Positions 449-63,996 of a stretch of DNA of 64,000 nucleotides are shown here, piece by piece. The notes below the pieces were generated by a model. That model ran no database searches. It had not been told where the DNA came from and saw only the letters and a list, made by a program, of their open reading frames with translations. Position numbers and translations under genes: made by a program. Location: assembly GCA_949289265.1 (NCBI GenBank), contig CASENE010000106.1, positions 1 to 64,000 of the forward strand. Direction: 5' to 3'. The stretch's first letter is position 1, and the number at the start of each line of letters is the position of its first letter. The DNA comes from an uncultured Bacteroides sp. GTDB taxonomy: Bacteria > Bacteroidota > Bacteroidia > Bacteroidales > Bacteroidaceae.

Positions 449-540
449 TATTGCCAGCAACCTGGCATTGGAACGCCAGCAACCTGGCATTATAACGCCA
501 GCTACCTGGAACTATAATGCCACTAAGTGCTGACAGGCAG
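449..540. repeat. 22-bp tandem hairpin array A, in the carB-tamL intergenic region
   Basis: Three units start at 453, 475 and 497, exactly 22 bp apart. Each begins GCCAGC(A/T)ACCTGG, an inverted repeat CCAG/CTGG, and ends in a variable AT-rich segment such as ATTATAAC. The array ends at 519 with GCCACTAAGTGCTGACAG. Read on the minus strand this is CAGCACTTAGTGGC, a variant of the boundary seen at 32019 and 62767. The 313-bp gap 362-674 holds only the carB terminator, this array and the tamL promoter. Confidence 0.75.
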
Positions 541-610
541 GCGTTTGCAGGAATCTTGGGATGTCTCCGTGAGAGAGTCTTTGTCCGCCGTCCGTTTTTT
601 TCTCTTTTCA

Positions 611-642
611 TTTTCCAGACAAGAAAATAACGGCTATATTTG
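611..642 (+). promoter_or_regulatory. Bacteroides-type promoter for the TamL-like gene
   Basis: The -7 element TATATTTG (TAnnTTTG) is at 635-642, and a weak -33 match (TTTTCC) begins at 611. Transcription would start about 25 bp before the ATG at 675. Confidence 0.55.
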
Positions 643-674
643 TAGCATCTTAGCATAATTTGGCCAAAGACGGT

Positions 675-2987
675 ATGAAAAGCGGTATCCGTAGCACACT
701 CACCCTGTTTCTCCTGCTGGTGTTAGCAGCCTGTTCTTCCACCAAATACGTTCCCGATGGAGCCTATCTGCTGGACGACGTGCGCATCCGTACGGATAAC
801 GACCGCGTGCGTTCGTCCGAGCTTTCCATGTATGTCCGTCAAAAGCCCAATTCCAAGTGGTTCAGCCTGATAAAGACGCAGCTGTATGTTTACAACTGGT
901 CGGGGCGCGACACGACGCGTTGGATAAACCGGATGTTGCGCCGCATGGGGGATGCGCCCGTGATCTACAGCGAGGCAGAAACGGACCGTACTGCGGAAGA
1001 GATTACCAAGGCTGTCCGTAACATGGGCTATATGAGTGCTACGGTAGAACCTTTCCGGGAGGTGAAGAAGAAGAAACTGAAACTGACCTACCGCGTCCAT
1101 ACGGGGAGACCCTACAAGGTGCGTTCCCTTCAGTACGAGGTGCCGGACGAGAACATACGCGCCCTGATGCGACGCGATTCGGCCAACACGCTGCTGCGCG
1201 AAGGGATGTTTTTCGATGTGAATGTGCTGGATGCCGAGCGCCAGCGCATCACGTCCCATCTCTTGGAGCATGGCTATTATAAGTTCAACAAAGACTATCT
1301 CCATTATACGGCCGATACCGTCCGCAACACCTATCTGGTCGACCTGACCCTTCACCTCAACCTTTACAGACGCCAGCCCACGGATACGCTGGGGCCGCAT
1401 CCGCAGTACCGCATGAACAAGGTGGCCTTCATAACCGATTATAATGTGTTGGAGTCGTCGATGGAGAACAGCATTCAGGTGAACGACTCGTTGCACTACC
1501 ACGGTTATCCCATCTATTTTAAAGACCGGCTTTATCTGCGTCCGCAAGTCCTGGTAAACAACTTGTATTTTGCGCCCGGCGATTTGTATAACGACCGGGA
1601 TGTGCAGCGCACCTATTCTCGCTTCGGACGTTTGCAGGCACTGAAGTACACCAACATCCGTTTCGTAGAGAACGCGCAGAAGGACTCTGCCAGCCTCGAT
1701 GCCTATGTGATGCTTACGAATAACAAGCCGCAATCCATCTCTCTCGAGATAGAAGGAACCAATTCGGCCGGCGACCTGGGGGCCGGGGCATCCGTCTCGT
1801 ACAACCATCGGAACCTGTTTCATGGCTCTGAGGCTTTCATGCTGAAGTTGCGCGGAGCCTATGAGGCCGTTTCGGGCCTGCAAGGCACAGGGTATAACCA
1901 GAACTATATCGAACTGGGGGCGGAGACGTCCATCCACTTCCCGCGTTTCCTGTTCCCTTTCCTTTCCAGCAACTTTACCAGGCGCATCTCCGCCACCACC
2001 GAGTTCGGCCTGCAATACAACTACCAGATGAGGCCAGAGTTTACCCGCATCGTGGCATCAGCCGGGTGGAGCTATAATTGGGGTATGCAACGCCAGCGCA
2101 CCCAGCATCGCCTCGACTTGCTGGACATCAACTACCTGTACATGCCGTGGATAGACCCCGGGTTTGAAGACCTGTATCTGGAGAAGGAGCAGAATTATAT
2201 CCTGAAGTATAATTACGAAGACCGCCTGATTGTGCGGACAGGATACAGCTATACTTACAACAGCGCCGGTCGCGCCCTGGCGAACAATGCCACGCTGGGC
2301 GATTCGTATGCGCTGCGTCTCAACTTCGAGTCTGCCGGAAATCTGCTTTACCTGCTGGGCAAAGCAGCCCGGATGAAGAAGAACGGTAACGGAGAATACA
2401 CGTTGCTGGGCATACCGTTTGCGCAATATATCAAGGCCGACGTGGACTTTGCGAAGAACATTGTGATAGACAACCGCAACTCATTGGCGTTTCACGTTGG
2501 TGCGGGCATCGCCATCCCGTATGGGAATGCTTCGGTCGTACCGTTCGAGAAACGGTATTTTTCCGGCGGCGCCAACAGTGTCCGTGGTTGGTCTGTACGC
2601 GATTTAGGACCTGGCTCGTTCCCCGGAGACAACAATTTCCTGAACCAATCGGGCGACATCAAGTTCGATGCCAGCATTGAATACCGTACGAGACTTTTCT
2701 GGAAACTGCATGGGGCTGCCTTTGTTGACGCCGGCAATATCTGGACGCTCAAGGATTATGAAGAACAGCCCGGTGGTAAGTTTGAATTGAATAAGTTCTA
2801 CAAGCAGATAGCAGTGGCATATGGTTTGGGGATACGCCTGGATTTGGATTTCTTTGTGCTACGTTTTGACGGAGGCATGAAGGCCATCAATCCTGTTTAT
2901 GAGAAAGGCCCGTTGCGCTATCCCATCATTCACCCCCAGTTCAAGCGGGACTTTGCTTTTCATTTTGCGGTGGGTTATCCCTTCTGA
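675..2987 (+). CDS. TamL-like lipoprotein, BamA/TamA (Omp85) family
   Basis: Predicted 770-residue outer-membrane protein of the Omp85 superfamily, which assembles or translocates other envelope proteins. The ATG at 675 starts MKSGIRSTLTLFLLLVLAACSS: a signal peptide with lipobox LAAC, so the N-terminus is lipidated. That is the hallmark of TamL, the Bacteroidota version of TamA. POTRA-like repeats fill roughly residues 30-370, and a 16-strand barrel follows from about 380. The conserved L6-loop VRGW motif occurs in ANSVRGWSVRDLGPG near residue 640. A TTG at 660 is in frame but would put five residues before the signal peptide, so the ATG is preferred. The usual partner tamB is not next to it here. 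BamA proper is less likely because BamA is not lipidated. Confidence 0.87.
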   Translation: MKSGIRSTLTLFLLLVLAACSSTKYVPDGAYLLDDVRIRTDNDRVRSSELSMYVRQKPNSKWFSLIKTQLYVYNWSGRDTTRWINRMLRRMGDAPVIYSEAETDRTAEEITKAVRNMGYMSATVEPFREVKKKKLKLTYRVHTGRPYKVRSLQYEVPDENIRALMRRDSANTLLREGMFFDVNVLDAERQRITSHLLEHGYYKFNKDYLHYTADTVRNTYLVDLTLHLNLYRRQPTDTLGPHPQYRMNKVAFITDYNVLESSMENSIQVNDSLHYHGYPIYFKDRLYLRPQVLVNNLYFAPGDLYNDRDVQRTYSRFGRLQALKYTNIRFVENAQKDSASLDAYVMLTNNKPQSISLEIEGTNSAGDLGAGASVSYNHRNLFHGSEAFMLKLRGAYEAVSGLQGTGYNQNYIELGAETSIHFPRFLFPFLSSNFTRRISATTEFGLQYNYQMRPEFTRIVASAGWSYNWGMQRQRTQHRLDLLDINYLYMPWIDPGFEDLYLEKEQNYILKYNYEDRLIVRTGYSYTYNSAGRALANNATLGDSYALRLNFESAGNLLYLLGKAARMKKNGNGEYTLLGIPFAQYIKADVDFAKNIVIDNRNSLAFHVGAGIAIPYGNASVVPFEKRYFSGGANSVRGWSVRDLGPGSFPGDNNFLNQSGDIKFDASIEYRTRLFWKLHGAAFVDAGNIWTLKDYEEQPGGKFELNKFYKQIAVAYGLGIRLDLDFFVLRFDGGMKAINPVYEKGPLRYPIIHPQFKRDFAFHFAVGYPF

Positions 2988-2998
2988 ACCTGCTTCAT

Positions 2999-3451
2999 TC
3001 AGTGCTTATTTATCTTTCCTTCTTCCTTACGGGCATAAAACATCTTCTGCACAAATGCACGGATCAGCGGATAAGCCTCTTCGGGGGTAGCGGCGTCGTG
3101 GCAAGCAGTTTCCAAGGGGCAACGGCCATCCCCCTGGCGATTCACAATATATGGTACCTGTCGATCGCACTCTGCCTCGATGCCTGCCTGCCGCAACAAA
3201 TCCAGTGCCGTCACACTGGCTACATCGGCATGTACGTAGGCCACTCCTCCCAAGGCCAATAAGGCCGCGGCTCCTTTGCCTATCACCTTGTCGGCCACAT
3301 AGGCTCCTTGCATGAAACCGCGCTCTGTTTCGTACAGTTCGTAAAGGTCTATGACGCCACGTCTGGAGAAAGTGCGGACTTCGTCCCCATGTTGTATTAC
3401 ACATGAATAGTGGCCCTCGTGCAGAAGAGCTTTGATCTTAGCCTTACACAT
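2999..3451 (-). CDS. DUF1893 domain protein
   Basis: Small cytoplasmic protein of 150 residues without signal peptide or membrane helix. The order of segments (CVIQHGDEVRTFSRRGV, then VADKVIGKGAAALLALGGV, then VTALDLLRQAGIEAECDRQVPYIVNRQGDGRCPLE) matches DUF1893, a family with a deaminase-like fold and no proven reaction. Conserved cysteines are visible in the GRCPLET segment. It converges with the TamL-like gene, 11 bp away, and the next gene on its strand starts 100 bp further on, so it is probably a single-gene unit. The family call is firm from memory of its motifs; function is unknown. Confidence 0.75.
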   Translation of the reverse strand: MCKAKIKALLHEGHYSCVIQHGDEVRTFSRRGVIDLYELYETERGFMQGAYVADKVIGKGAAALLALGGVAYVHADVASVTALDLLRQAGIEAECDRQVPYIVNRQGDGRCPLETACHDAATPEEAYPLIRAFVQKMFYARKEEGKINKH

Positions 3452-3554
3452 ACGCTAAACTTTGGCAGTGTCTTACTTAAAATGCAGGTTCGACATAAGC
3501 CTCCTTCGGAAAGAATGCCGGATGTATGAAGGCTTATATCGAATTCACGTTATT

Positions 3555-4937
3555 TCATTTATCTTGCTTCAGTTGCTCCACAAAATGGTCTATGCGATGC
3601 AGTTCGTGGGGAATGTCTATGGATTGCGGGCAATGCGGATTGCACTGGCCGCATCCGATGCAGTGACTGGCTTGCCGCAAACGGGGGACACTTCGGTCAT
3701 AGCCAATCAGGAAAGCGCGTCGTGCGCGACGGTAATCCTCGCTTTGGCTGTCCTGAGGTATATTTCCTTCATTGACACATTTATTGTAATGGAGCAATAC
3801 GGCCGGGATGTCAATGCCATAAGGGCAGGGCATGCAATACTTGCAATCGTTGCAGGGGATGGTCGGGTATTGGGCTATCAAATCAGCCGTGTCGAAGAGA
3901 AATTGCTGCTCGTCTTTTGTCAGCGGAACTAAAGGAGAATAGGTGGACAGATTGTCTTGCAGATGTTCCATATACGTCATGCCGCTCAATACGGTCAGAA
4001 CCTTGGGGAAGGAACCGGCAAAGCGAAATGCCCACGAAGCAACGCTGCTCTCGGGGCGTTGTCTCTTGAGACGTGTCACGATATGATCCGGCAAATTAGA
4101 CAACCGTCCGCCTAACAACGGCTCCATGATAACAGCCGGTATATTCCGTTTCTCTAGTTCGGCATACAGGTATTCGGCATTGACGTTAGCTCCTGAAGCA
4201 TGGCGCCAATCCACATAGTTCAGTTGAATCTGCACAAAGTCCCAATGAACACGGTCGTGCATGGCCAGCACTTGGTCGAAGACATCTTGGGTGCCATGAA
4301 ACGAGAAACCCAAATGGCGGATGCGTCCGGCTTCACGCTCTTTCACCAGAAAGTCCAGCATCCCATTGTCTATATAACGTGCGTTGAACGTCTTGATTCC
4401 TCCATTGCCTATGGAGTGCAACAGATAATAATCAATGTAATCTACCTGCATGTCAACGAATGACTGTTCATACATCTTGATGGAGTTTTCTCGCGTGAAG
4501 TTGGAGAAGTTAGAAAGTTTGGTAGCAATCTTGAAACTTTCCCTCGGATGGCGCTTCAGTGCGATACCCGTGGCTTTCTCGCTCCATCCTTGTACATAGA
4601 CAGGCGATGTGTCGAAATAGTTGACTCCATGTTCGATGGCATAGTCCACAAGTCGGTTTACTTCATCCTGGTCTATCAGGTCACCCTTTCCATCGGGAGA
4701 GGGAATGGTGGGCCAACGCATGCAACCGTATCCTAACAAAGAAACCTTATCTTCCGTCTTATCGGATAAATTCCGGTACGTCATCTGTCCGGTGGTTGCC
4801 GTTGTACCAGTAGTCTGTTGCGAGACATTGTTCTCGTGCTCTCCTTTGGCGGCACACCCCAACAACCCAGTGGATGATGCAGTGGTTAGTCCTATAATCT
4901 TAAGGAAATCGCGTCGGTTTATGTTCTTGCTCTTCAT
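3555..4937 (-). CDS. Tat-exported aldo/keto reductase with C-terminal 4Fe-4S motifs
   Basis: Predicted 460-residue oxidoreductase. The start at 4937 gives MKSKNINRRDFLKIIG, a twin-arginine signal, followed by the lipobox-like TGLLGCAA, so the protein is probably exported folded and possibly lipidated. The aldo/keto reductase barrel spans about residues 55-340, with the NYFDTSPVYVQGWSE active-site loop (Tyr) and YIDYYLLHSI. The C-terminal third has two cysteine motifs, CNDCKYCMPCPYGID and CIGCGQCNPHCPQSI, typical of iron-sulfur clusters. An upstream ATG at 5045 would bury the Tat signal and overlap the next gene, so it is rejected. The likely role is periplasmic electron transfer to or from an unknown carbonyl substrate. 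Confidence 0.85.
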   Translation of the reverse strand: MKSKNINRRDFLKIIGLTTASSTGLLGCAAKGEHENNVSQQTTGTTATTGQMTYRNLSDKTEDKVSLLGYGCMRWPTIPSPDGKGDLIDQDEVNRLVDYAIEHGVNYFDTSPVYVQGWSEKATGIALKRHPRESFKIATKLSNFSNFTRENSIKMYEQSFVDMQVDYIDYYLLHSIGNGGIKTFNARYIDNGMLDFLVKEREAGRIRHLGFSFHGTQDVFDQVLAMHDRVHWDFVQIQLNYVDWRHASGANVNAEYLYAELEKRNIPAVIMEPLLGGRLSNLPDHIVTRLKRQRPESSVASWAFRFAGSFPKVLTVLSGMTYMEHLQDNLSTYSPLVPLTKDEQQFLFDTADLIAQYPTIPCNDCKYCMPCPYGIDIPAVLLHYNKCVNEGNIPQDSQSEDYRRARRAFLIGYDRSVPRLRQASHCIGCGQCNPHCPQSIDIPHELHRIDHFVEQLKQDK

Positions 4938-4944
4938 GTTGTGT

Positions 4945-6081
4945 TTATTTAGGCGCTTTCTGATAGAGGTAGAAAGCGATGAATGTGTACAATATATTGG
5001 GAATCCAGACAGCAATGGACGGAGGCATGTTCCCATTGATGGCAAAAGTGGAAGCTATGGTCTGGAACAATATATACGAGAAACTTAGGGCCAGCCCTAT
5101 ACCCAAGTGCAGCCCCATGCCTCCTTTGGTCTTACGCGACGACAACGAGACACCTATCAGCGTCAGAATGAAAGAGGCAAACGACGTTGCTATACGCTTG
5201 TGATATTCTATCTCAAATTCTTTGATGTTGGCAAATCCACGTTGCTTTTGTCGGTCTATGTATTCACTCAGTTGCGGACTGGTCAGCATCTCCTGCTGGT
5301 TCTTCATTATCAAGAAGTCTGCCGGTTCCATGAACAGCGTGGTGTCGATACGGGTTCCTCGTGTAATGGTCTCTTTCATACCTTTCATTTCGCGTATCAT
5401 GTAATCTTTGATTGTCCATCGGTGTACGGCAGAAGTGTCATAGGTGATACTGCGGGCTGTGAGGTGAGACACCAGTTGTTTCCCTTCAAATTTGTCCAAC
5501 GAGAACCTGTAGCCGGTATTGCTGTAACTCTCAAACCGATTGATATAAGCAATGACGCCGCTATCCACCTCTAACTGAATATTACGCGCAGTGTTCATCT
5601 TTCTCTGCTTGTAGTACTTGTCCTCAAAATTGATACGAGTGACGCTTCCCTTGGGAATAACGTATGCGCCCAGACAGAAGGTTGTCACTGCAATGATGGC
5701 AGCCGAGATCATATACGGACGCAACATGCGTTTAAAGCTCATGCCTGTGGAAAACATGGCTATAATCTCTGAGTTCTCAGCCAATTTGGAGGTGAAGAAT
5801 ATTACGGCAATGAAGACAAACAGAGGACTGAACAGGTTGGCAAAGTAAGGGATAAAGTTCAGGTAATAGTCAAAAATGATGGCACTCCACGGAGCGTCGT
5901 GCGACATGAACTTGTCTTGCTTCTCGTTAAAGTCGAAAACTACGGCAATAGAGATAATCAAGGCAATAGCAAACACATAAGTGCCCAGAAACTTCTTGAT
6001 GATGTACCAGTCCAACCGTTTGAGCGGCTTGTTATCGGCCCAATTCAGTCTTTGCCATATGTTCAGATGGAATCGCTTCAT
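4945..6081 (-). CDS. LptF/LptG (YjgP/YjgQ) family lipopolysaccharide-export permease
   Basis: Predicted inner-membrane permease of the ABC system that extracts LPS or lipooligosaccharide and passes it to the Lpt bridge. N-terminal helices include FLGTYVFAIALIISIAVVF and LFSPLFVFIAVIFF, then IIAMFSTGMSFKRML, a large periplasmic beta-jellyroll region, and two C-terminal helices (ASFILTLIGVSLSSRK, SYILFQTIAST). The ATG at 6081 overlaps the tgt stop codon as ATGA, which supports it over the ATG at 6120. It ends the lon-tgt-lptG-type operon. LptF and LptG cannot be separated from this sequence alone. Confidence 0.88.
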   Translation of the reverse strand: MKRFHLNIWQRLNWADNKPLKRLDWYIIKKFLGTYVFAIALIISIAVVFDFNEKQDKFMSHDAPWSAIIFDYYLNFIPYFANLFSPLFVFIAVIFFTSKLAENSEIIAMFSTGMSFKRMLRPYMISAAIIAVTTFCLGAYVIPKGSVTRINFEDKYYKQRKMNTARNIQLEVDSGVIAYINRFESYSNTGYRFSLDKFEGKQLVSHLTARSITYDTSAVHRWTIKDYMIREMKGMKETITRGTRIDTTLFMEPADFLIMKNQQEMLTSPQLSEYIDRQKQRGFANIKEFEIEYHKRIATSFASFILTLIGVSLSSRKTKGGMGLHLGIGLALSFSYILFQTIASTFAINGNMPPSIAVWIPNILYTFIAFYLYQKAPK

Positions 6082-10571: not shown

Positions 10572-10692
10572 CGAGACCTTTGGGACGACGCAATGAAACG
10601 CAACGCATAGACGTGTCGCTCTAAGGAGAAATCTGGGCTTGCTGAAGTGATTCTTAGGCTCCTTTAAAAGTCCTTCAAGGTAGCATTGGATT

Positions 10693-10780
10693 GCCAGGTC
10701 GGTAGGACTTAACCGCCAGCAACCTGGAACTTAACTGCCAGCAACCGGGATGTTAAGTCCCGCTAATCCTTGAAATACAG
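10693..10780. repeat. 22-bp tandem hairpin array B
   Basis: Units start at 10693, 10715 and 10737, exactly 22 bp apart. Each begins GCCAG and ends in a TTAA-containing segment; a degenerate fourth unit follows at 10759. The hairpin core is CCAGCAACCTGG in unit 2, with weaker arms in units 1 and 3. It belongs to the same family as the array at 449. The gap 10572-10913 contains nothing else recognisable except the tRNA-Pro promoter. Confidence 0.7.
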
Positions 10781-10865
10781 GCACCTGGAATAAAGCGAAA
10801 ATCGACCGAGCAAGAAGTTCGTCCGGTGAGAGGCATGAAGCAAGTATGATATAATTTTCTAAAAG

Positions 10866-11382: not shown

Positions 11383-11388
11383 ACATTG

Positions 11389-15303: not shown

Positions 15304-15365
15304 ACTTTCCCGTCAGAAAACTTGGCCAAGTGCGGGGGAAAAGTTGTCTTTCCCTTGGAAAAACT

Positions 15366-15452
15366 GTAAATCTAGGCTGGATTTACATGAATCTAGGTTA
15401 GATTTACATAAATCCAGGTTAGATTTACATAAATCCAGCCTAGATTTATAGT
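15366..15452. repeat. 21-bp tandem hairpin array with palindromic ends
   Basis: Four units begin at AATC(T/C)AGG positions 15369, 15390, 15411 and 15432, exactly 21 bp apart. Each carries the inverted repeat AAATC...GATTT. The first unit contains TAAATCTAGGCTGGATTTA and the last contains its exact reverse complement, so the array is close to one large palindrome. The 508-bp gap 15242-15749 otherwise holds the NigD terminator and a candidate hisH promoter; I see no gene in it. Confidence 0.85.
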
Positions 15453-15641
15453 TTTCGCCAAGGATTGCCAACTTTTTCCCGCAAGATAGGGGATTTTTAT
15501 CCTTGGAGAGAGGATTGTTTCGGGGGGAGCCTGGCCATGTCCGCGGCCCCATTCCGGCCGATGCCCGCTCCCTCCGGAGGACTTTCTGTCTTTTTTGAAA
15601 AACTTATCGTGCTAAATGTTCCTTCTTTTGCATTTATTCCT

Positions 15642-27250: not shown

Positions 27251-27340
27251 CCGAGTGGAGGGGGGGCACCTATCCGAGTGGGAGTGTCCCACCTATCCGA
27301 GTGGGGGAGTCCCACCTATCCGAGTGGAGTTTCTCCACTG
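27251..27340. repeat. 23-bp tandem hairpin array at the 3' end of the DUF4469 gene
   Basis: CCGAGTGG recurs at 27251, 27274, 27297 and 27320, exactly 23 bp apart. Units 2 and 3 contain GTGGGA...TCCCAC-type arms, and unit 4 contains GTGGAGTTTCTCCAC, where both arms changed together. The last unit codes the final residues and stop of the DUF4469 protein; the others lie just downstream. Confidence 0.8.
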
Positions 27341-31895: not shown

Positions 31896-32018
31896 CATTG
31901 CGAAAGAAATCTTCGTAAAAAATAATTCAAAGCTGTGTCGCTTCGCTTCGGATAGGGCCATTGTCCCAAGGCCTTTCCCAGATGGCGGAACCGAAGCGCG
32001 GCAGAATGGGTTGTATAT

Positions 32019-32128
32019 CAGCGTTTAGTGGCGTAGTAATGCCCGGTCGCTGGCATAGTAACGCCCGGTCGCTGGGATTATAACGCCCGGCGGGTGGGAC
32101 AGTATCGCCCGGTCCGGCAGGCAGGAAG
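32019..32128. repeat. 22-bp tandem hairpin array C
   Basis: Units start at 32019, 32041, 32063, 32085 and 32107, exactly 22 bp apart. The first is the boundary unit (CAGCGTTTAGTGGC plus GTAGTAAT). The others begin GCCCGG followed by sequences such as TCGCTGG and TATA-like ends. The 567-bp gap 31691-32257 holds only the fimbrial promoter, this array and the DUF3805 promoter. Confidence 0.85.
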
Positions 32129-41311: not shown

Positions 41312-41405
41312 GTTCCCGATGCCTGGGAATGTCGTTCCCAGTACAAGGGAATGCCGTTCCCAGTACAAGGGAATGCCGTTCCCAGTATAAGGGATGTCCG
41401 TTCCC
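41312..41405. repeat. 22-bp tandem hairpin array D
   Basis: GTTCCC recurs at 41312, 41334, 41356, 41378 and 41400, exactly 22 bp apart. Central units read GTTCCCAGTACAAGGGAA plus TGCC, with arms TTCCC/GGGAA around a 7-base loop. The 348-bp gap 41241-41588 holds this array and a candidate promoter for the DUF4369 gene. Confidence 0.88.
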
Positions 41406-48861: not shown

Positions 48862-49000
48862 GATGTTGCACATGAGTTTGTCGCATGAAGCTACGGGAAA
48901 GGAAGGGGATAGCGGCTACCTGGACGTAGAAAAGGTGCCACCTTTTCCTACAATCAGTGCCACCTTTTCTTAGAATCAGTGCCACCTTTTCCTATCCTTC
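48862..49000. repeat. 22-bp tandem hairpin array G1 with leader, upstream of bioD
   Basis: GTGCCACCTTTTC recurs at 48935, 48957 and 48979, exactly 22 bp apart, with spacers like CTACAATCA. AGGTG/CACCT arms are seen in the first unit. A 73-bp leader from 48862 (GATGTTG...GAAAAG) closely matches the leader at 63859. The gap 48838-49040 contains nothing else. Confidence 0.85.
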
Positions 49001-49040
49001 CCGATGAGAAAGCAGCGTTATCTTAGCGTATAGGTTGCGC

Positions 49041-51693: not shown

Positions 51694-53949
51694 TTACTGT
51701 TCCGTCACCACCTTTATCAGGCCCCGCGTCAGTTTCGATAGTTCTTCCGGCTGAATCACGTAGGGCGGCATCACGTAGGCCAGCCGTCCGAAGGGGCGCA
51801 CCCAGATGCCCTCCTCCACGAAGCGGCGTTGCATGCGGGCCATGTCCACAGGCTGCTTCAGCTCGATGACGCCAATGGTGCCCAATACCCGCACGTCGTT
51901 CACTTCGGGTAGCTGTCGGGCCGGCTCTAACTCCTCCTTCAGCTGACGCTCAATGCGCGCCACCCGCCCCTGCCAGTCATACTCCGGCGAAGTCAGCAGG
52001 CGGATGGAGGCGCACGCCACGGCACAGGCCAGCGGATTGCCCATGAACGTCGGTCCGTGCATGAACACCCCCGGCGTGTGTGCCGAGAGCATGTCTGCCA
52101 CCTCGTTGGTGGCCAGCACGGCCGCCATGGTCATGTATCCGCCCGTCAGTGCTTTGCCTATGGTCATGATGTCCGGCTCCACCCCGGCGTGTTCCCAGGC
52201 AAAGAGCCGTCCGGTGCGCCCGAAGCCTGTGGCTATCTCGTCGAAGATGAGTAGCAGGCCATGCTCACGGCAGTGGCGGGCCGCCTCCACCAAGTACTGG
52301 GGGTGGTAGAACCACATGCCGCCTGCTCCTTGCACGATGGGCTCCAGAATGAGGGCGGCCAGCGTGTCGGCATGGGTGGTGATGAGGGCGCGCAGTTCGT
52401 CGATGTCGTGCTCGTCCCATGCCCCGTCGAAGCGCGAGCGGGGCTGGGGGGCGAAGTATCGCTTGGGCAGGGCAGGGCCGAAGAGCGAGTGCATGCCGGT
52501 GACGGGGTCGCACACGGACATGGCATTCCATGTGTCGCCATGATACCCGCTGCGGATGGTCACGAAGTTCTGCTTCTTCGCCAAGTGGGTAAGGCCGGGG
52601 TGCGACAGGCTCTTGGCATACCAGTATTGCACTGCCATCTTCATGGCCACCTCTACCGACACTGATCCCGAGTCGGCATAGAATATCTTCTGAAGCCTGG
52701 GCGGCACGAGGGGCAGCAGGAGGCGCGCCAGTTCGATGGCCGGGTCGTGCGTCAGCCCGCCGAACATCACGTGCGACATCTGTTCTAACTGTGCTTGGGC
52801 AGCCTGGTTCAACTCCGGGCGGTTGTAGCCATGCACAGCGCACCACCACGACGACATGCCGTCCACAAGGCGTTGTCCCGTCGAGAGCGTGAGCGTGGCT
52901 CCGCGAGCACTTGCTACTTTATAGACAGGCAGGGGATGGGAAGTGGAGGTATAGGGGTGCCACAGGTGCAGGGTGTCCGTCAGGGTGTCGTCCGGCTCGT
53001 ACCCGGCTTCTTGCGCCAGACGATGGTCTTCGGAAGACGTGGAGCCGGTGGTGGTGAGCAGGTCGCCGGTGATGGCCGCATTGATGCCGATGTACATGGC
53101 GCGCCGTTGGACGTCTTTGGAGAAGCGTTTCCTGCCTCCCGCAAAACGCAGGGCGGCGCGTGGCAGGATAAAGCGGAAGAGGGCCACGGTGGTCAGCAGG
53201 TCTTCGTCGCTCAAGAGGGGTTGGTGTGCTAAGGGAGTGCCGGGGATGGGAGCCAGTACGTTGAGGGGCACGGAGGCAATGTCCAGCTCACGCAACCGGA
53301 AGGCCAGCTCGATGCGTTGCTCCACCGATTCGCCCATGCCGATGATGCCGCCGCTGCACACTTCCAGCCCCGCACGGCGGGCAGCTTGCAGGGTGTTTAT
53401 CTTGTCTTCCTGCGTGTGGGTGGTGCAAAGGGTGGGGAAGTAAGAGGGGGCTGTCTCCAGGTTGCAATGATAGCGCGTGATGCCGGCATCGGCCAGGCTT
53501 CGCATGCCTTCTTCATCCACCAGTCCCAGGGAGGCGCAGAGGCGGATGGAGGTGTGTTGGCGCAGGTAGCGGGCGGTGTCGCAAAGGCGCTCCAAGAGTT
53601 GCCGAGAAGGGCGTCGCCCGCTGATGACGAGCGAGAAACGACCGATGCCTTGCGCTTCGTGCAGGCGAGCCTGGCGCAGGCATTCGTCCTTGTCCACCAG
53701 GTCATAAATCTCTGCCCCCGTGTGGTGGTGGGCCGACTGGGCGCACCACTTGCAGTCTTCTGGGCAGCGACCGGAGCGTGCATTGATGATGGAGCAGAAG
53801 TCCGCCCTGCGGTCGGCCAGGCGGAGCGTGATTTCGTGTGCTGCTTCGTACAATGCCTCCTTATCGGGCATCGCGGCCAGGCCGAGGGCCTCCGTCGGGG
53901 TGATGCTCCCTCCGCGGAGAACTTTTTCTTTCAGGTCTTGTATCTTCAT
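51694..53949 (-). CDS. bioBA: Fused biotin synthase - adenosylmethionine-8-amino-7-oxononanoate aminotransferase
   Basis: Bifunctional enzyme of 751 residues. Residues 1 to about 320 are BioB: the radical-SAM cluster motif is [13 protein letters not shown], with [12 protein letters not shown] and [11 protein letters not shown]. From about 335 the BioA half begins with [30 protein letters not shown], the [17 protein letters not shown] helix, [19 protein letters not shown] and [11 protein letters not shown] (PLP Lys) follow. BioA makes 7,8-diaminopelargonate and BioB inserts sulfur at the end of the pathway, so one chain holds two non-consecutive steps. I recall this fusion from other Bacteroides. 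It is probably the first main gene of the bio operon. Confidence 0.96.
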
Positions 53950-54257: not shown

Positions 54258-54366
54258 CTCCCGACCTGGCTTTCTAATACCCGCTTCCTGGGACTCTATT
54301 ACCCGCCATCGGGGACTACTATGCCCGCTTCCTGGGAGTACTATGCCACTAAACGCTGAGAGACAG
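54258..54366. repeat. 22-bp tandem hairpin array E
   Basis: Units start at 54258, 54280, 54302 and 54324, exactly 22 bp apart, with cores CCCGCTTCCTGGGA and CCCGCCATCGGGGA. It ends in GCCACTAAACGCTGAGAG (54345 on), the reverse complement of the boundary at 32019. The 457-bp gap 54167-54623 contains this array and the proS promoter. Confidence 0.82.
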
Positions 54367-54451
54367 TCTGTTTCAAGCCGCTTCTAAAGGCATCCGGCGG
54401 AAATGCCGTGCGGTATGCGGATGCAAATGTAATATAAAAGCGGAATACTTG

Positions 54452-56117: not shown

Positions 56118-56150
56118 TTGAAAGCAGGGTATAGAAACGATTACAGATGC

Positions 56151-56196
56151 GGAAGCGCGGATACGTCGAGAGCGGCGTCCGCGCTTCCGTCGTTTT
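56151..56196 (+). terminator. Terminator after proS
   Basis: GGAAGCGCGGA (56151-56161) pairs with TCCGCGCTTCC (56178-56188), followed by GTCGTTTTA. The T-run overlaps the stop of the convergent fucose-isomerase-like gene. Confidence 0.85.
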
Positions 56197-57433: not shown

Positions 57434-57549
57434 GTGTCGTAAAGGTTGGTTATCGTGCCGTAAAGGTAGTCCTTTCGGGAGAAAGGGCGGATCGCTTTTT
57501 CGTTGGTTTTGCTTAAATTATTATTGTTTATGGAAGCTTGCCGATCGAA

Positions 57550-58107: not shown

Positions 58108-59396
58108 AGGTTGATGTTCTTAAATTGTTTCATGATTTGGTCTCGTTTATACATCTCGTCTTTGGTCAGGGTGAATCCCATGTATTTGCAGGCATGGTCG
58201 TTCTTCAGGATGCAGATGCACATGCGCTTGTAGCTGGGAATCTCCCTGAACTCCGGGATGTTGATGTCGTCCAGGTAGTCCATCCGCACCGGGTGTTTCG
58301 TGGTCTTATAGTTGGTAGACCCCATCACCTCGATCGGGATGTTCAGTGCGCGCAGGCGGTTGATGGTAGCGTCGGACAGGCATCCGCCCTTGGTGCGCCA
58401 GAACTCTATGCTGACCGTCAGCTTGTGCAGGTAGTTTCGGCGGGTCTCTTCGGGCAGGGTGGAAAGCAGGAAGTGCATGAATCCTTTCCACGTGTATCCT
58501 TTGGGAAGCGTGATGCTCTGCCAGCCCATTGCCCGTGTGCCTCCATAGATGCCCGTAAAATTCACTCCGTTGACGCGGCCTATCATTTTTCCCCACGTAT
58601 TGGGGTCGATGGCGCGATAGAGCCGCAGGCTGTCTTGGGCTTCGCACAGAAAGGGACTGGCCACCCGCTGTCGCTCGATGTTAACCCCGGCCATGTAGTA
58701 TAGGTCGTACAGGTGGTTGTAGTCATACTTGAATTTGCCATTGGCTGTCCAGATGTCCACGGTCTTCCAGTCAAAAATAGGGTAAATATTATAGAGGTCG
58801 CTTCCTATCTTTGAAGTCCACCGATAGTTGTGATACATTTGATATTTACGGTTCAGGTGGATGCTGCGCCAGCGGTTGAAACTCTCTTGAGTACGGATGC
58901 CTATAAGGAAGCAGGTGCGTGTACTGTCTTTCTTTTGATGCAGCCATTTGGCGAAATGCATCTGAAACTCATAATCCCACATGTCGGCTGTGTAGAAAGG
59001 GAACTGCTCGTGGGTCATACAGGCTGTGGGCATGGGGCGCACCCATATGTCCTTCATGTCTTCGTCCCATGGGCGCCAGTAGTTTTGAAACATCGACGTG
59101 CAGGTGGCTACCTTGAAGGGCACGCAGACACGATATACCTCCAGGATGTCCTTGTTGGCTTCCAGGATACGGTCGACATATTCAATCGTGTGACGGTATT
59201 GTATCTCATAATCCATGTGGAATACGCACAACTTGCGTCCGGGGCAATGGCGACGGATGTATTCCATGCAGAGGTTGAGCAGTACGCCACTGTCTTTCCC
59301 GCCGGAAAAGGAAACGCATATCGTCTCAAATTCGCGGAACACGATGTCAAGCCGTTCCAGAGCCAGTTCATATACGTTCTTATTCTTATTTAGCAT
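58104..59396 (-). CDS. DUF3440 PAPS-reductase-like protein, IbrA-type
   Basis: Protein of 430 residues. The PP-loop SFSGGKDSG (residues 29-37) is that of PAPS reductases and N-type ATP pyrophosphatases. FHMDYEIQYRHTIEYVDRIL, IYPIFDWKTVDIWT and the long C-terminal DUF3440 region (NFTGIYGGTRAMGWQSITLPKGYTWKGFMHFLL) follow. This is IbrA-like, and differs from CysH in length and in lacking the CysH C-terminal Cys motif. It probably activates a substrate by adenylation. It is the middle gene of a three-gene cassette with GNAT-like and ParB-like genes. Confidence 0.82.
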   Translation of the reverse strand: MLNKNKNVYELALERLDIVFREFETICVSFSGGKDSGVLLNLCMEYIRRHCPGRKLCVFHMDYEIQYRHTIEYVDRILEANKDILEVYRVCVPFKVATCTSMFQNYWRPWDEDMKDIWVRPMPTACMTHEQFPFYTADMWDYEFQMHFAKWLHQKKDSTRTCFLIGIRTQESFNRWRSIHLNRKYQMYHNYRWTSKIGSDLYNIYPIFDWKTVDIWTANGKFKYDYNHLYDLYYMAGVNIERQRVASPFLCEAQDSLRLYRAIDPNTWGKMIGRVNGVNFTGIYGGTRAMGWQSITLPKGYTWKGFMHFLLSTLPEETRRNYLHKLTVSIEFWRTKGGCLSDATINRLRALNIPIEVMGSTNYKTTKHPVRMDYLDDINIPEFREIPSYKRMCICILKNDHACKYMGFTLTKDEMYKRDQIMKQFKNINL

Positions 59397-59799
59397 AGGC
59401 CGGTTCTTTTTTCATTTTCACATACAGAGTCCATCGCTTTTCGGTGGTGAAACCTGCACGAAGGAATACCTCTTCGTCGTCGCGGAAAGCCACAGCCGTC
59501 AGTGTTTGGGCAGGGAAAACACGGATAGCTTCTTGAATCAATAAGGACAATAAGTCTGCGTCGCGGTTGGCGATGTAATAGTTGTTGATTACATTGCTGG
59601 ATGCTTTATGTTCTATGGGAATGAAGCCAAGAATGCGCTCGTCGCTTTGTGCGATGAGCCATTCAAAGCGGTCAGACGTGCGAAACGGATAGTTGTTGTT
59701 CTGTTTCAATACAGCGGGATTCATCACTAACGGAGCCACCAATTGGTATAATTGTGTGTCTGTCCCGTGCAATCGTTTTATTTCTACGTAATCGTTCAT
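59386..59799 (-). CDS. GNAT-like protein, first gene of the IbrA/IbrB cassette
   Basis: Protein of 137 residues with a GNAT-type acetyltransferase look: DRFEWLIAQSDERILGFIPIEHKA, the AREA-like IQEAIRVFPAQTLTAVAF and the C-terminal FLRAGFTTEKRWTLYVKM (beta-6/7). The acetyl-CoA loop (R/QxxGxG/A) is not obvious, so activity is uncertain. Its stop codon overlaps the DUF3440 start by 11 bases. It is preceded by an AT-rich gap of 209 bp with no other feature seen. Confidence 0.6.
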   Translation of the reverse strand: MNDYVEIKRLHGTDTQLYQLVAPLVMNPAVLKQNNNYPFRTSDRFEWLIAQSDERILGFIPIEHKASSNVINNYYIANRDADLLSLLIQEAIRVFPAQTLTAVAFRDDEEVFLRAGFTTEKRWTLYVKMKKEPAYAK

Positions 59800-60008
59800 A
59801 TTTAATTTATGCTAAAGGTTATTGCCTGTATTCAGCGTTTTTGCGTGCTTATTGTACGGACAATATAGACCATCATCGTGCATGATACCTTATCAATGTC
59901 TGAGATTAACCAGCTTAAAGTTACTCCTTGCTTCCATATTTATTAGCATGCATTCATTTTATCTTATGACTTACTTATATATTAGGTGTCATTCTCTATT
60001 CATGGGAA

Positions 60009-61271
60009 TCACGATCGGGCATCCAGTTTCCGGGAATAGGGTGTGTCTATATAAGAATCTTTGAACCCTAAGAAATAGAGTACGCCATCCAGACCGATTG
60101 TGTTGATGGATTGTCTGGCGTTGGCCACTACTTTGGGCTTGGCGTGGAAGGCTATTCCTAGACCGGCCACTCCCAGCATCGGCAGGTCGTTGGCTCCATC
60201 ACCCACCGCGATGGTTTGGGCAATATCTACTTTTTCCACCTGTGCAATGAGGCGCAATAGTTCAGCCTTGCGTTTGCCGTCTACCACATCTCCCACGTAG
60301 CGACCTGTCAGTTTCCCGTCTATGATCTCCAGTTCGTTGGCGTATACGTAGTCAATGCCATACTTTTTCTGCAGGTACTCGCCGAAGTAGGTGAAACCTC
60401 CTGACAGGATAGCTATTTTATATCCATATTTTTTGAGTACATACATCAGCCTGTCCACTCCTTCCGTGATGGGTAGATGTTCGGCTATATCTTGCATGAC
60501 AGAGACATCCAGACCTTTTAATAGCGCGACTCGCTCGCGGAAACTTTCCGTGAAATCTATTTCTCCGCGCATAGCCCGTTCAGTAATAGCTTTCACCTGG
60601 TCGCCCACTCCGGCGCGCATGGCCAGTTCGTCTATCACTTCCGTTTCGATGAGCGTGGAATCCATGTCGAAGCAAATCAACCGGCGCATCCGGCGATACA
60701 TGTTGTCTTGCTGAAAAGAGAAATCTATCTCCAGTTCCGAGGCCATTTTCATCAGTTGCCTTTGCATCTGTTCCCGGTCTTTGGGAGTGCCGCGCACGGA
60801 AAACTCGATGCAAGCCTTGGTCTTTGCTTCAGTCTCATTCAATGGAATGCGTCCGGTCAGGCGTTTAATGGCGTCAATGTTCATCCCCTGGTCTGCCAAG
60901 ATACGGGTGGCGGCGGCAATCTGATTGGCGGTGAGTTTGCGTCCGAGCACGGTCAGGATGTAACGGTTCTTGCCTTGCATGTTTACCCAGTCGTTGTATT
61001 CTTTGGCGCTGATGGGATAAAACCGGATAGATACGCCCAACGAAGAGGCTGCGAAAAGTAGCTCTTTCATGATGAATCCGGAATGCGCTTCCTTCGTTTG
61101 GCAAAGGATACCTAATGAAAGTGTGCTATGAATGTCCGCCTGACCAATATCCATGATAGTGGCATCATATTTAGCCAGGATTTCCATGACTGACGCCGTT
61201 AGGCCGGGACGGTCTTCTCCGGTGATGCGGATAAGGATTAATTCTGTATCGGATTGTTTCTGTTCTTGCAT
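60009..61271 (-). CDS. serB: Phosphoserine phosphatase with N-terminal ACT-like domains
   Basis: HAD-family phosphatase of 420 residues, the last step of serine synthesis. The first ~190 residues contain two ACT-type regulatory regions (LILIRITGEDRPGLTASVM, YILTVLGRKLTANQIAAAT). The HAD core has ICFDMDSTLIETEV, ILSGGFTYF and VGDGANDLPMLGVAGLGIAFHAKP. The start at 61271 (MQEQKQSDTE) is preferred; a longer frame upstream lacks family residues. Confidence 0.95.
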   Translation of the reverse strand: MQEQKQSDTELILIRITGEDRPGLTASVMEILAKYDATIMDIGQADIHSTLSLGILCQTKEAHSGFIMKELLFAASSLGVSIRFYPISAKEYNDWVNMQGKNRYILTVLGRKLTANQIAAATRILADQGMNIDAIKRLTGRIPLNETEAKTKACIEFSVRGTPKDREQMQRQLMKMASELEIDFSFQQDNMYRRMRRLICFDMDSTLIETEVIDELAMRAGVGDQVKAITERAMRGEIDFTESFRERVALLKGLDVSVMQDIAEHLPITEGVDRLMYVLKKYGYKIAILSGGFTYFGEYLQKKYGIDYVYANELEIIDGKLTGRYVGDVVDGKRKAELLRLIAQVEKVDIAQTIAVGDGANDLPMLGVAGLGIAFHAKPKVVANARQSINTIGLDGVLYFLGFKDSYIDTPYSRKLDARS

Positions 61272-61409
61272 ATCACAATAGTATCTAAAAATGAATAAAT
61301 CAGCAGATAAATGGTTCGTTGGTAAGTTTCCAAGTTTGTAAGTTGAAGCCTGATAATAATTTGTGAACAAACAAACTTAAAAACGCAAAAGCTGAACACT
61401 TAGCTTTTG

Positions 61410-61417
61410 CAAAAGTA
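61410..61417 (-). promoter_or_regulatory. Candidate -7 element for serB
   Basis: On the minus strand, TACTTTTG matches TAnnTTTG, about 140 bp before the start at 61271. Confidence 0.4.
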
Positions 61418-61510
61418 AAGAAATTCCTGTATAAATAGGGATTTGTATGTTCGTTTTATGCTAAACAACATAAAAAATGAGGGCAGAATACGTTTTTCTG
61501 ATTTGTTTAT

Positions 61511-61543
61511 TTGGAAAATACTTTTATAAATGCCTACCTTTGC
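61511..61543 (+). promoter_or_regulatory. Promoter of the thioredoxin-fold gene
   Basis: TTTG at 61511-61514, 21 bp, then TACCTTTG at 61536-61543. The ATG is about 120 bp downstream. The AT-rich gap 61272-61666 contains no other gene. Confidence 0.6.
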
Positions 61544-61666
61544 CACCGATTTCAGGATAAAGAACTTGAAGTGTGATGGCGCTTCAAACTTGTGATAGTA
61601 AAGATTTGGAAGTGAAATCTTCACAAACAGTGGATTCCAAATGAGTATTAATCTAAACCGTATTGC

Positions 61667-62146
61667 ATGAGATATGTAAAATGGATTTTTGCAGTGGTAT
61701 TAGTTAGCTTCTTGACTTCTTTTGTGAATAAGGACAGAGTCGCAAAAGGGTTAAATGTTGGTGATAAAGCTCCTGATATTTCTGTTCAGTCTTTAGAACT
61801 TTCTGACTATCAGGGAACGTATGTCTTATTGAGCTTTTGGGCCAGCTATGATGCACCATCCCGCATGAATAATGCGGCCTTGAGCAATGAACTTCGTATC
61901 GCAGGCTCTAATGACTTGAAGATGATTTCCATCTCGTTTGACGAATACGAGTCAGTCTTTAGAGAAACTTTGCGAAAAGATTGCATAGCAACAACCGCTT
62001 GTCTTGTGGAAACAAGAGGTGAATCGTCCGAACTTTATGAGTCATATCATTTGGAACGAGGTTTTGCCAATTATCTGTTGGATGAAAATGGTATTATATT
62101 AGCTAAAAACATCTCTGCAGATGAACTTACTGCTTATTTGAATTGA
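61667..62146 (+). CDS. Exported thioredoxin-fold (TlpA-like) protein lacking active-site cysteines
   Basis: Protein of 159 residues with a signal peptide (MRYVKWIFAVVLVSFLTSFV). The fold is clear from LNVGDKAPDISVQSLELSDYQGTYVLLSFWASYDAPSR, where the usual WCxxC is replaced by SYDAPSR. FANYLLDENGIILAKN is a typical TlpA C-terminal strand. Without the two cysteines it cannot do standard thiol exchange, and may instead bind or scaffold. Two Cys remain elsewhere (DCIATTACLVE). Confidence 0.8.
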   Translation: MRYVKWIFAVVLVSFLTSFVNKDRVAKGLNVGDKAPDISVQSLELSDYQGTYVLLSFWASYDAPSRMNNAALSNELRIAGSNDLKMISISFDEYESVFRETLRKDCIATTACLVETRGESSELYESYHLERGFANYLLDENGIILAKNISADELTAYLN

Positions 62147-62265
62147 AAAAACGGAGTAATTTGAGGGTAGTAAAGGATAAAGGCGAAGAGGATTGGAGAA
62201 ACGTACTTCTAAACGGAATCTGAACAGAATCTTTAAGGCGAGAATAAAAAAATAGGTGTTTAATT

Positions 62266-62295
62266 TTTGCATTTCTCGAAACTTTATTACCTTTG
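62266..62295 (+). promoter_or_regulatory. Promoter of tRNA-Gly
   Basis: TTTG at 62266-62269, 18 bp, then TACCTTTG at 62288-62295. Confidence 0.65.
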
Positions 62296-62331
62296 CACTG
62301 CGTTTTCATAGTATAGAATTTTATTTTAGTC

Positions 62332-62404
62332 GCGGCAATAGCTCAGTTGGTAGAGCATCAGCTTCCCAAGCTGAGGGTCACGAGTTCGAACCTCGCTTGC
62401 CGCT
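62332..62404 (+). tRNA. tRNA-Gly (anticodon CCC)
   Basis: Acceptor GCGGCAA pairs with TTGCCGC. The anticodon stem TCAGC/GCTGA holds the loop TTCCCAA, so the anticodon is CCC. The T arm is CGAGTTCGAACCTCG. The discriminator is T, as usual for bacterial tRNA-Gly. CCA is not encoded. Confidence 0.94.
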
Positions 62405-62415
62405 CGACTGAGAAT

Positions 62416-62450
62416 CAGGCACTTAGATGAGAATCTGGGTGCCTGTTTTC
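62416..62450 (+). terminator. Terminator after tRNA-Gly
   Basis: CAGGCAC (62416-62422) pairs with GTGCCTG (62439-62445), followed by TTTTC. Confidence 0.8.
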
Positions 62451-62462
62451 GTTATGGCTATT

Positions 62463-62500
62463 GCGGGTCAGTGGATAATTCGGATTATCCGCTGACCCGC
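62463..62500. repeat. 38-bp nearly perfect palindrome between two tRNA genes
   Basis: GCGGGTCAGTGGATAATTCG is followed directly by GATTATCCGCTGACCCGC, with two mismatches. The segment CGGATTATCCGCTGA (62481-62495) occurs identically at 11286-11300, in the other tRNA region. Confidence 0.8.
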
Positions 62501-62513
62501 ACAAACCTCTTGA

Positions 62514-62554
62514 AGCAAAACAAGCTGTATGCTATTGGCATACAGCTTGTTTTG
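62514..62554 (-). terminator. Terminator after tRNA-Arg
   Basis: ACAAGCTGTATGC (62520-62532) pairs perfectly with GCATACAGCTTGT (62538-62550). On the minus strand TTTTGCTT follows. Confidence 0.85.
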
Positions 62555-62558
62555 AAAG

Positions 62559-62632
<74 letters not shown>

Positions 62633-62654
62633 GACCTTTGTTTTAATTCGGGTG

Positions 62655-62686
62655 CAAAGATACCATTTTCTACCTGAACACACAAA
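62655..62686 (-). promoter_or_regulatory. Promoter of tRNA-Arg
   Basis: On the minus strand, TTTG (62686-62683), 20 bp, then TATCTTTG (62662-62655): a full consensus match. Confidence 0.75.
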
Positions 62687-62766
62687 TATTCAGAACAAAA
62701 AATCACGGCGTTTACGTCGCTTTCTCATCCAATGCCCCTTTAAACCGCTTCAAACGGCCTGTCAGT

Positions 62767-62865
62767 CAGCGTTTAGTGGCGTAGTATTCGCCGGTGGCTG
62801 GCATAGTACTCCCAGCTTGCTGGAGATAGAGTTCCAGGTAGCTGGAGTTATATCTGCCGGTCAAG
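62767..62865. repeat. 22-bp tandem hairpin array F
   Basis: Units at 62767 (CAGCGTTTAGTGGC boundary), 62789, 62811 and 62833, exactly 22 bp apart. Cores are CCGGTGGCTGG, CCAGCTTGCTGG and CCAGGTAGCTGG, which are changed but still paired. It lies just after the 3' end of the dehydrogenase gene. Confidence 0.85.
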
Positions 62866-62870
62866 CGAGG

Positions 62871-63827
62871 TTAGGCCACGTTGTTCTTCGCTTGCCCCTG
62901 AAGCCACGAGCGGAGGTTATCCGTGGCGATTTGCATCAGGCGAGTACGTGCGTCCTGACTGGCCCAGGCGATGTGCGGAGTGATGAAGCAGTTGCGGGCG
63001 TCCAGCAAAGGATTGTCCGGACGCGGAGGCTCTGCGGACAAGACGTCCAGACCGGCTGCATAGATACGTTCTTCGTTCAAGGCATCTGCCAAAGCCTGCT
63101 CGTCAATCAAGGGACCACGGGATGTGTTAATCAGAATGGCCGACGGCTTCATCAAAGAGAGACGACGCTTGTCCACCAGATTCTGTGTCTCAGGAGTCAG
63201 CGGACAATGCAGGCTGACAATGTCGCATTGGGCAAACAGTTCGTCCAAGGTCTCTGCCTTATGTATTCCGGGCGGCAACTGGGAGGCAGGCTTGGACGTC
63301 CAGGCGTCTACATGCAGGCCGAAGGACTGGGCGATGCGGGCCGTGCGGCTGCCGATATGGCCAAAGCCGACAATACCCATGCGCTTGCCGCTCAATTCTA
63401 TGAGTGGGGTATCCCAGAAACAGAAATCTTTAGAAGCGCACCAGCGTCCGCTGCGCACGGCCTCGGCATGGTGCTCTACGTGTAGAGCGATGTTCAGCAA
63501 ATGGGCAAAAACCATCTGGGCCACCGAATCCGTGCTATAGGAAGGAATGTTCGTCACCACAATGCCGCGACTGCGGGCCGCGTCGATGTCCACGATGTTA
63601 TATCCGGTGGCAAGCACGCCGATGTAGCGTAAGTCGGGTAGGGCGCGAATCGCTTCCGCCGAAAGCACCGTCTTGTTGGTCAATAACACTTGGGCTCCTG
63701 CGGCGCGTTCCATGAGTTGCGGGGGCGAAGTACGTTCGTAAACCACACAATCGCCCAAAGCCTTTATCCCGTCCCAGCTCAAATCGCCGGGGTTGGCTGC
63801 ATAGCCGTCCAATACTACTATTTTCAT
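62871..63827 (-). CDS. D-2-hydroxyacid dehydrogenase
   Basis: NAD(H)-dependent dehydrogenase of 318 residues, similar to glycerate/hydroxypyruvate reductases. The dinucleotide motif is GIVGFGHIGSRTARIAQSFG, the Arg is in ILINTSRGPLIDEQAL, and the Glu and His are in DVLSAEPPRPDNPLLDARNCFITPHIAWAS. The exact substrate is not readable. A repeat array with leader lies just upstream of its start. Confidence 0.9.
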   Translation of the reverse strand: MKIVVLDGYAANPGDLSWDGIKALGDCVVYERTSPPQLMERAAGAQVLLTNKTVLSAEAIRALPDLRYIGVLATGYNIVDIDAARSRGIVVTNIPSYSTDSVAQMVFAHLLNIALHVEHHAEAVRSGRWCASKDFCFWDTPLIELSGKRMGIVGFGHIGSRTARIAQSFGLHVDAWTSKPASQLPPGIHKAETLDELFAQCDIVSLHCPLTPETQNLVDKRRLSLMKPSAILINTSRGPLIDEQALADALNEERIYAAGLDVLSAEPPRPDNPLLDARNCFITPHIAWASQDARTRLMQIATDNLRSWLQGQAKNNVA

Positions 63828-63858
63828 TTAGAACCAGAATTTTTAAATCATTAAACAG

Positions 63859-63996
63859 ATGTTGATTGTTAGTTTATCGCACAAAGCTACGGACAAGGAG
63901 AGGGGAAGTAGCTACCTTGGTATAGAAAAGGTGGCACCTTTTCCTACAATCAGTGGCACCTTTTCCTACAATCAGTGCCACTGATTCTTATCCTTC
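63859..63996. repeat. 22-bp tandem hairpin array G2 with leader, upstream of the dehydrogenase gene
   Basis: GTG(G/C)CAC-type units start at 63931, 63953 and 63975, exactly 22 bp apart, with CTACAATCA between. The 72-bp leader from 63859 matches that at 48862. On the minus strand the leader contains TAGCTTTG, a -7 type element, so the element may carry the dehydrogenase promoter. It runs to the window edge. Confidence 0.85.

Follow-up and report, generated by a model that had tools for sequence, protein, structure and literature searches.

Short intergenic repeat arrays on a 21-23-bp grid in an uncultured Bacteroides sp.: several are copies of dispersed families, possibly bound by a DNA-binding protein

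Non-coding bacterial repeats of constant size were described by Subirana and Messeguer (2020, 2021), who report units of 20-23 nt with unrelated sequences and several families per genome, remark on two helical turns and propose a protein polymerising on the DNA (PMC8161180, through whose citations alone the 2020 paper is used here). An earlier survey of the general repeat kind exists (PMC6749651), and the accessible part of the literature offers no tested explanation for the constant size. A second described system is BrickBuilt, a miniature inverted-repeat transposable element (MITE) of P. gingivalis built of spacer-free imperfect 23-nt tandem units, which is present in 19 dispersed, always intergenic copies with distinct flanking modules and possesses IS5-like terminal inverted repeats, a long leader, a long tail and as many as 22.8 units (PMC4596501). 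In this study we analyse short tandem arrays with periods of 21-23 bp in a stretch of 64,000 nucleotides from an uncultured Bacteroides sp. (contig C106, positions 1-64000, called the window in the following) and in the remaining genome. The arrays had been pointed out by an original prediction made from the letters of the window.

The source genome is a 3.03-Mb draft in 108 contigs which is 93% complete, and the bacterium belongs to the same order as Porphyromonas gingivalis. About 27% of the genome was read; some of these stretches were chosen around matches of one repeat family (family 1) and are biased to that family. The systematic sample consists of the window and 20 stretches picked by contig number (314,895 bases in total). 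Array periods are those given by Tandem Repeats Finder (TRF), with a score of at least 50 for the intergenic count, and sequence families were counted once after clustering at 72% identity. Genes were predicted with our own dicodon caller and not taken from the annotation, and 116 gene gaps of at least 100 bp serve as the reference set. The placement of families 1 and 3 relative to genes was judged inside the stretches read, and long arrays may be collapsed in the draft assembly.

The arrays are real and occur genome-wide, and their grid of 21-23 bp corresponds to two helical turns. In the systematic sample, periods of 21-23 bp account for 35 of 49 intergenic tandem repeats (three of 21, 27 of exactly 22 and five of 23). 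Five others lie at roughly the double unit (42-46), two at 15-19 and none at 25-29, while none of the five genic arrays shows a period of 22 bp. An array of period 20-24 or 40-48 is present in 34 of the 116 gaps. The excess of 21-23-bp periods between genes, set beforehand by the original prediction as its first test, is borne out as far as about a quarter of the genome was read. Within the window the prediction had counted nine arrays but listed ten, nine of which TRF recovers at the same places with periods of 21-23; the tenth (62767) escapes TRF and is placed by the family-1 profile (Table 1). All ten are intergenic as claimed, save that the last 14 bp of the 27251 array overlap a gene (27316) at its 3' end. 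That the sequence differs between arrays is correct in so far as distinct families exist, but five of the ten (453, 10693, 32019, 54258 and 62767) are copies of the dispersed family 1, and the arrays at 48935 and 63931 both belong to family 4.

Counting each sequence family once, 14 of 33 families of the source genome outside family 1 have a period of 22 bp (periods 10-60, 698 kb), as do 16 of 34 in the genus and 13 of 48 in other Bacteroidales. Since 22 bp is common to families of different sequence, the period is not the property of one family, despite the reservation on array L126 made below. When arrays instead of families are counted, exactly 22 bp is found for 17 of 42 intergenic arrays in other species of the genus, two of 11 at Bacteroides-like proS loci, 15 of 102 at the proS loci of other Bacteroidales and three of 11 in other Bacteroidota (six of 11 at 21-23). 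In E. coli MG1655 (150 kb) there is only one array, with a period of 21. The intergenic DNA of other Bacteroidales has a second tandem-repeat peak at 7 and 14 bp beside the one at 20-23.

The same distance separates the centres of inverted repeats. In 105 kb of intergenic DNA from the source genome, a set which includes stretches selected around family-1 matches, 52 pairs of centres are 22 bp apart compared to 4.0 in first-order Markov shuffles. The corresponding numbers are 45 vs 11.4 in the genus, 32 vs 17.2 in other Bacteroidales, 6 vs 4.0 in other Bacteroidota and 1 vs 1.0 in E. coli (17 kb examined only). Further peaks at 11 and 33 bp arise because the palindromes recur every 22 bp, and they are hence no separate evidence. 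Among pairs that are no more than 60% identical, the source genome shows a modest excess at 22 bp (15 vs 4-8 at 20, 21, 23 and 24 bp), as does the genus (19 vs 3-14 at neighbouring distances), and other Bacteroidales show none (22 vs 18-26). At one locus of another genome (G021, L131, 5297-5440) we saw by eye a row of GAAAC...GTTTC palindromes where spacers shorten as loops lengthen, which keeps the centres about 22 bp apart.

Family 1 has 163 matches in the genome, representing at least 134 loci among the 150 matches listed. It consists of a half unit, three 22-bp units (more in few copies) and the tail GCCACTAAACGCTGAnnnnCAGnCnGTTT; the unit number is mostly 3.5 and additional units at some loci stay in register. 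The tail is present at 90 of the 134 loci, and at 75 of these tail and full length are covered by a single match among those listed. Twenty-eight copies, picked by an ungapped tail motif plus a 22-bp match rule, align without gaps across 156 columns. A gap-permitting profile search (both strands, 57 distinct loci, 698 kb) yielded one alignment with an indel out of 134, and 146 of the 150 listed matches keep the exact length, a net change being seen in four; the mean column identity of the copies is 74%. CC and GG marks that vary little or not at all among the copies alternate at distances of 10 and 12 bp. The columns linked most strongly are either adjacent or equivalent in successive units; they are not arm partners.

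A further explanation is ordinary replication slippage, by which minisatellites would obtain a period set by chance at each locus. It would account for the tandem nature of the arrays, for the co-variation of family-1 columns 22 bp apart, as local copying would give, and for the additional in-register units. We regard it as highly improbable, because copy numbers are small (1.9-5.4 units in 45 source-genome arrays with periods of 20-24 that do not belong to family 1) and in family 1 mostly constant, because the period recurs across families of different sequence, and because in family 3 tracts outside the repeat obey the same grid.

Family 3, represented in the window by the array at 15367, was found at 32 distinct places in the genome, some of them partial (counted by eye from 66 matches), with matches on both strands at 31 of the 32. 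In an alignment of 21 copies (the window copy and 20 fetched ones) conservation per column is 90% within the 82-bp array. To its left A-tracts end at -46, -25 and -4, and to its right T-tracts start at +4, +25 and +46, followed by a weaker one at +68. The tract columns are 90% (left) and 94% (right) conserved, compared to 57% and 62% for the remaining flank columns. If three of four letters are required, the individual tracts are retained in 16, 20, 21, 21, 21 and 20 of the 21 copies, and all six occur together in 15. Family 3 is the clearest sign that the position on the helix, and not pairing, is conserved. Regular steps are also seen in a family with the motif TTCGTCC: all 16 same-strand pairs within 70 bp, from seven clusters, are separated by 11, 22, 33 or 44 bp, and the five opposite-strand pairs by 24, 25, 46, 46 and 58 bp.

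The original prediction had seen an inverted repeat in nearly every unit, with arms that change but stay complementary, and had suggested selection on structure or helical phase. Palindromes are indeed enriched, but not universal: the consensus unit is palindromic at p<=0.05 in 17 of 86 own arrays, nine of 32 in the genus and six of 41 in other Bacteroidales (a variant giving no loop for free, with 16 of 86 at p<0.05, was superseded by this test). Complementarity of the changes does not hold up as evidence of compensation either. RNAalifold proposes eight pairs for family 1, none of which has a compensatory change. Standard pairing in family 1 amounts to 65.9% and 62.8% for the two possible arm sets, compared to 67.8% and 65.0% after shuffling; of 500 shuffles, 479 and 495, respectively, reach at least the observed value. 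For family 3 arm pairing is below all 500 shuffles; since its unit is an imperfect palindrome present in both orientations, the variable arm partners are in most cases C-A or T-G and not Watson-Crick pairs. Complementary double changes in arm cells are at chance level in own arrays (1 vs 0.9 expected) and in the genus (0 vs 0.4). The second refuting condition named by the original prediction, a lack of excess in complementary arm changes, has thereby come true.

The lack of arm covariation means that families 1 and 3 maintain no hairpin, be it of RNA or as a cruciform, and a hairpin or RNA structure, weak overall, was rejected for these two families. Of the two alternatives offered by the prediction, structure is therefore not supported. 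Phase is supported by the period common to different families, the exact length of the family-1 matches, the TTCGTCC pairs at multiples of 11 and the 21-bp steps of the family-3 tracts. In families 1 and 3 the placement of certain letters is conserved, not hairpin pairing.

Hairpins acting at the RNA level, as terminators, attenuators or protectors of mRNA 3' ends, are in our view an improbable explanation, even though the family-3 tracts, A before and T after the array, could form a two-way terminator. Family 3 leans to convergent gaps (7/21 vs 19/116, p=0.077) and away from divergent ones (2/21 vs 31/116, p=0.10), neither being significant. The enrichment of palindromes would suit such a role as well, and the named family-1 arms pair more than partners slid by 1-3 columns, which dyad-symmetric marks would also give. 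In arrays of other Bacteroidales there are four compensatory cells compared to 0.5 expected, the sole result of the compensation tests leaning in this direction. Besides the pairing tests, however, the gap types of family 1 disagree with this explanation. With two of 57 loci at stretch ends excluded, 29 of 55 gaps are co-directional, 18 divergent and eight convergent, about as in all gaps. Divergent gaps are used as often as expected (18/55 vs 31/116, p=0.47), which speaks against a role at RNA 3' ends. In same-direction gaps nine full copies point along and five against their genes. In the window only tRNAs reach the Rfam thresholds.

Because the position of letters and not their pairing is conserved in families 1 and 3, the arrays are likely docking sites for a DNA-binding protein. 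Our preferred reading, to which we would give a probability of roughly 45% from the sequence data, is that these short intergenic arrays, several of which are copies of dispersed families, are bound by a putative protein along one face of the helix. Such a protein would read the conserved marks and assemble with fixed spacing; if it binds cooperatively, spacing would count more than sequence. Its role might lie in holding or organising the chromosome, and not in the control of a single adjacent gene. In favour of this reading, family-1 loci in same-direction gaps are always at least 60 bp away from the called downstream start (29/29). The HU/IHF family (PF00216) has 12 matches in the source genome, the highest number among 60 Bacteroidota genomes (0-8 in the others). 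These copies are a possible pool of architectural DNA-binding proteins and were considered for their number only.

Several observations weigh against a bound protein. With the 22-bp period held constant, the 11-bp peak in family-1 conservation is not significant (p=0.11), and one at 7.3 bp slightly surpasses it. Among 33 typed 22-bp units an 11-bp direct signal is significant in one of 15 own and none of 18 genus units, and whole-unit dyad symmetry in two of 15 and three of 18; by these unit-level tests and the family-1 spectrum a general 11-bp half-period rule was dropped. Profile searches stop at gaps, so that indels in family 1 are somewhat under-counted. Among the genus arrays treated as independent, at least L126 is distantly related to family 1, and in other families of the order none of nine arrays, a small sample, has a period of 21-23. 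Family 1 itself was found, weakly, in only seven of 118 other genomes of the genus at E<=1e-6. Its position at proS is not conserved either: with 59 other genomes searched and flanks fetched for 29 other same-genus loci, the only family-1 match is weak (E 0.34). Finally, a selfish element would also account for spread and intergenic placement.

The source genome shares a ProS identity of 95% with two same-genus genomes and of 93% with an uncultured Bacteroides and Mediterranea massiliensis, which marks the bacterium as Bacteroides-type. Several of the 29 proS loci carry different 20-23-bp repeats. In the gap upstream of proS, which in the window genome holds a family-1 element, genome G015 (locus L180) has an array of about five copies of GAGACTTGAAA at 11-bp steps, as read by eye.

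Since family 1 is lineage-specific, and since the ends of several families reach past the array, the arrays have probably spread in part as dispersed elements, and a purely selfish origin is the main rival. According to this explanation the arrays would be MITE-like elements with an internal minisatellite, similar to BrickBuilt and without host function, and the period would be inherited from old source elements. Apart from the ten out of ten intergenic window arrays, conserved sequence outside the repeat agrees with it, namely the family-1 tail, the family-3 flanks and family 4, which occupies nine distinct places (counted by eye from 12 matches, including the arrays at 48935 and 63931). We nevertheless consider it possible but rather unlikely. 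Family-1 copies are almost free of indels in spite of their divergence, and 22 bp would not be expected to be common to families of different sequence. The flanks of family 1 are not complementary and form no terminal inverted repeat (permutation p 0.97). Across 89 arrays the two flanks of an array complement each other slightly better than flanks swapped between arrays (p=0.002), and only the window copy of family 3 (15367), whose flanks are complementary, passes the 99th percentile. The Y1 transposase (PF01797), present in 19 of 41 genomes searched, has no match in the 93%-complete source genome, other transposase types not having been searched.

A wider form of the protein-binding reading can be imagined, which we regard as doubtful. 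Unrelated intergenic sequences, genome-wide and across the Bacteroidales, may have converged on two-turn marks via one conserved polymerising architectural protein. In such a bacterial phasing code the helix position would be inherited while the sequence drifts, a loose counterpart of nucleosome-positioning DNA.

The absence of hairpin covariation together with the conserved positions points to DNA read at fixed steps, and families 1 (at least 134 loci) and 3 (32 places) are ready-made probes for finding the protein. If the protein-binding reading is true, the genomes of these bacteria contain a dispersed architectural code overlooked by current annotation.

Table 1. Arrays and array-associated segments of the window with the evidence for each.
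Feature	Position	Strand	Evidence
Family-1 element: half unit, three 22-bp units and tail GCCACTAAGTGCTGA...	432..546	+	profile E 8.8e-30; TRF 453-522, period 22; alignment copy A1
Family-1 element, diverged copy	10683..10786	+	profile E 1.2e-11; TRF 10707-10750, period 22
Family-3 left flank, A-tracts about 21 bp apart (15317-15320, 15339-15342, 15360-15363)	15317..15363	.	21-copy alignment
Family-3 array of period 21 (core unit TAAATyyAGsCTrrATTTA and a 2-bp spacer)	15367..15448	.	TRF
Family-3 right flank, T-tracts at 21-bp steps (15452-15455, 15473-15476, 15494-15497)	15452..15497	.	21-copy alignment
Array, period 23, unrelated to any other sampled array	27251..27329	.	TRF and family clustering
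Family-1 element	32005..32116	-	profile E 1.7e-25; TRF 32029-32114, period 22
Array, period 22 (GGGAATGCCGTTCCCAGTACAA), unrelated to any other sampled array	41325..41405	.	TRF and family clustering
Family-4 element in the gap that separates the BioC gene from its neighbour; array 48935-48994 (period 22)	48899..49002	+	85% identity to copy at 63890; TRF
Family-1 element, upstream of proS	54259..54373	+	profile E 5.9e-28; TRF 54265-54335 and 54280-54347, period 22
Family-1 element, its end 5 bp away from the gene at 62871 (3' end)	62752..62866	-	profile E 4.4e-28; not in TRF list
Family-4 element, array 63931-63981 (period 22)	63890..64000	+	genome matches; TRF

Among the genes of the window, a single reading frame on the minus strand (51694-53949) matches BioB (residues 16-317) and then BioA (329-748), representing a fused bioB-bioA gene.

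The original prediction knew of no named element that fits. This does not hold, because constant-size repeats of 20-23 nt are published (PMC8161180) and BrickBuilt comes close (PMC4596501). The general kind of bacterial repeat is thus already in print, though unexplained. We did not find in print this set of Bacteroides arrays, the common tails, the phased tracts or the negative covariation test, in a literature search mostly without subscription papers.

Repetitive extragenic palindromic (REP) sequences and bacterial interspersed mosaic elements (BIMEs) with their REP-associated tyrosine transposase (RAYT, TnpA-REP) are also short, dispersed, intergenic and palindrome-like, as far as the sources at hand describe them. 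They differ from the arrays studied here, which have no compensating arms and a strict 22-bp grid, and identity with REP/RAYT was rejected because no Y1 transposase was found in the 93%-complete source genome. BrickBuilt is the closest named element that we met. It shares with our families the dispersed copies with flanking modules (the family-1 tail, the flanks of families 3 and 4). Judged by the available description (PMC4596501), it differs from family 1, which lacks complementary flanks and has mostly 3.5 units, and from the single-copy arrays at 27251 and 41325, which have no dispersed flanking modules. Its terminal inverted repeats have no equivalent in family 1; in family 3 the window copy has complementary flanks, and both strands match at nearly all places.

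Compared to the repeats of Subirana and Messeguer, the accessible part of PMC8161180 contains no common tails, no phased A/T-tract flanks and no covariation test, and a word search of it for Bacteroid- or Porphyromonas gave no hit. At least four repeats are required there, a number reached here by ten of 45 own and three of 32 genus arrays (period 20-24, outside family 1). On the other hand both sets agree in the constant length of 20-23 nt, with 35 of 49 intergenic arrays at 21-23 in our case, and in the presence of several families of different sequence per genome, here 33 beside family 1. The idea of a protein polymerising on such repeats, close to the reading we prefer, was proposed by these authors (PMC8161180).

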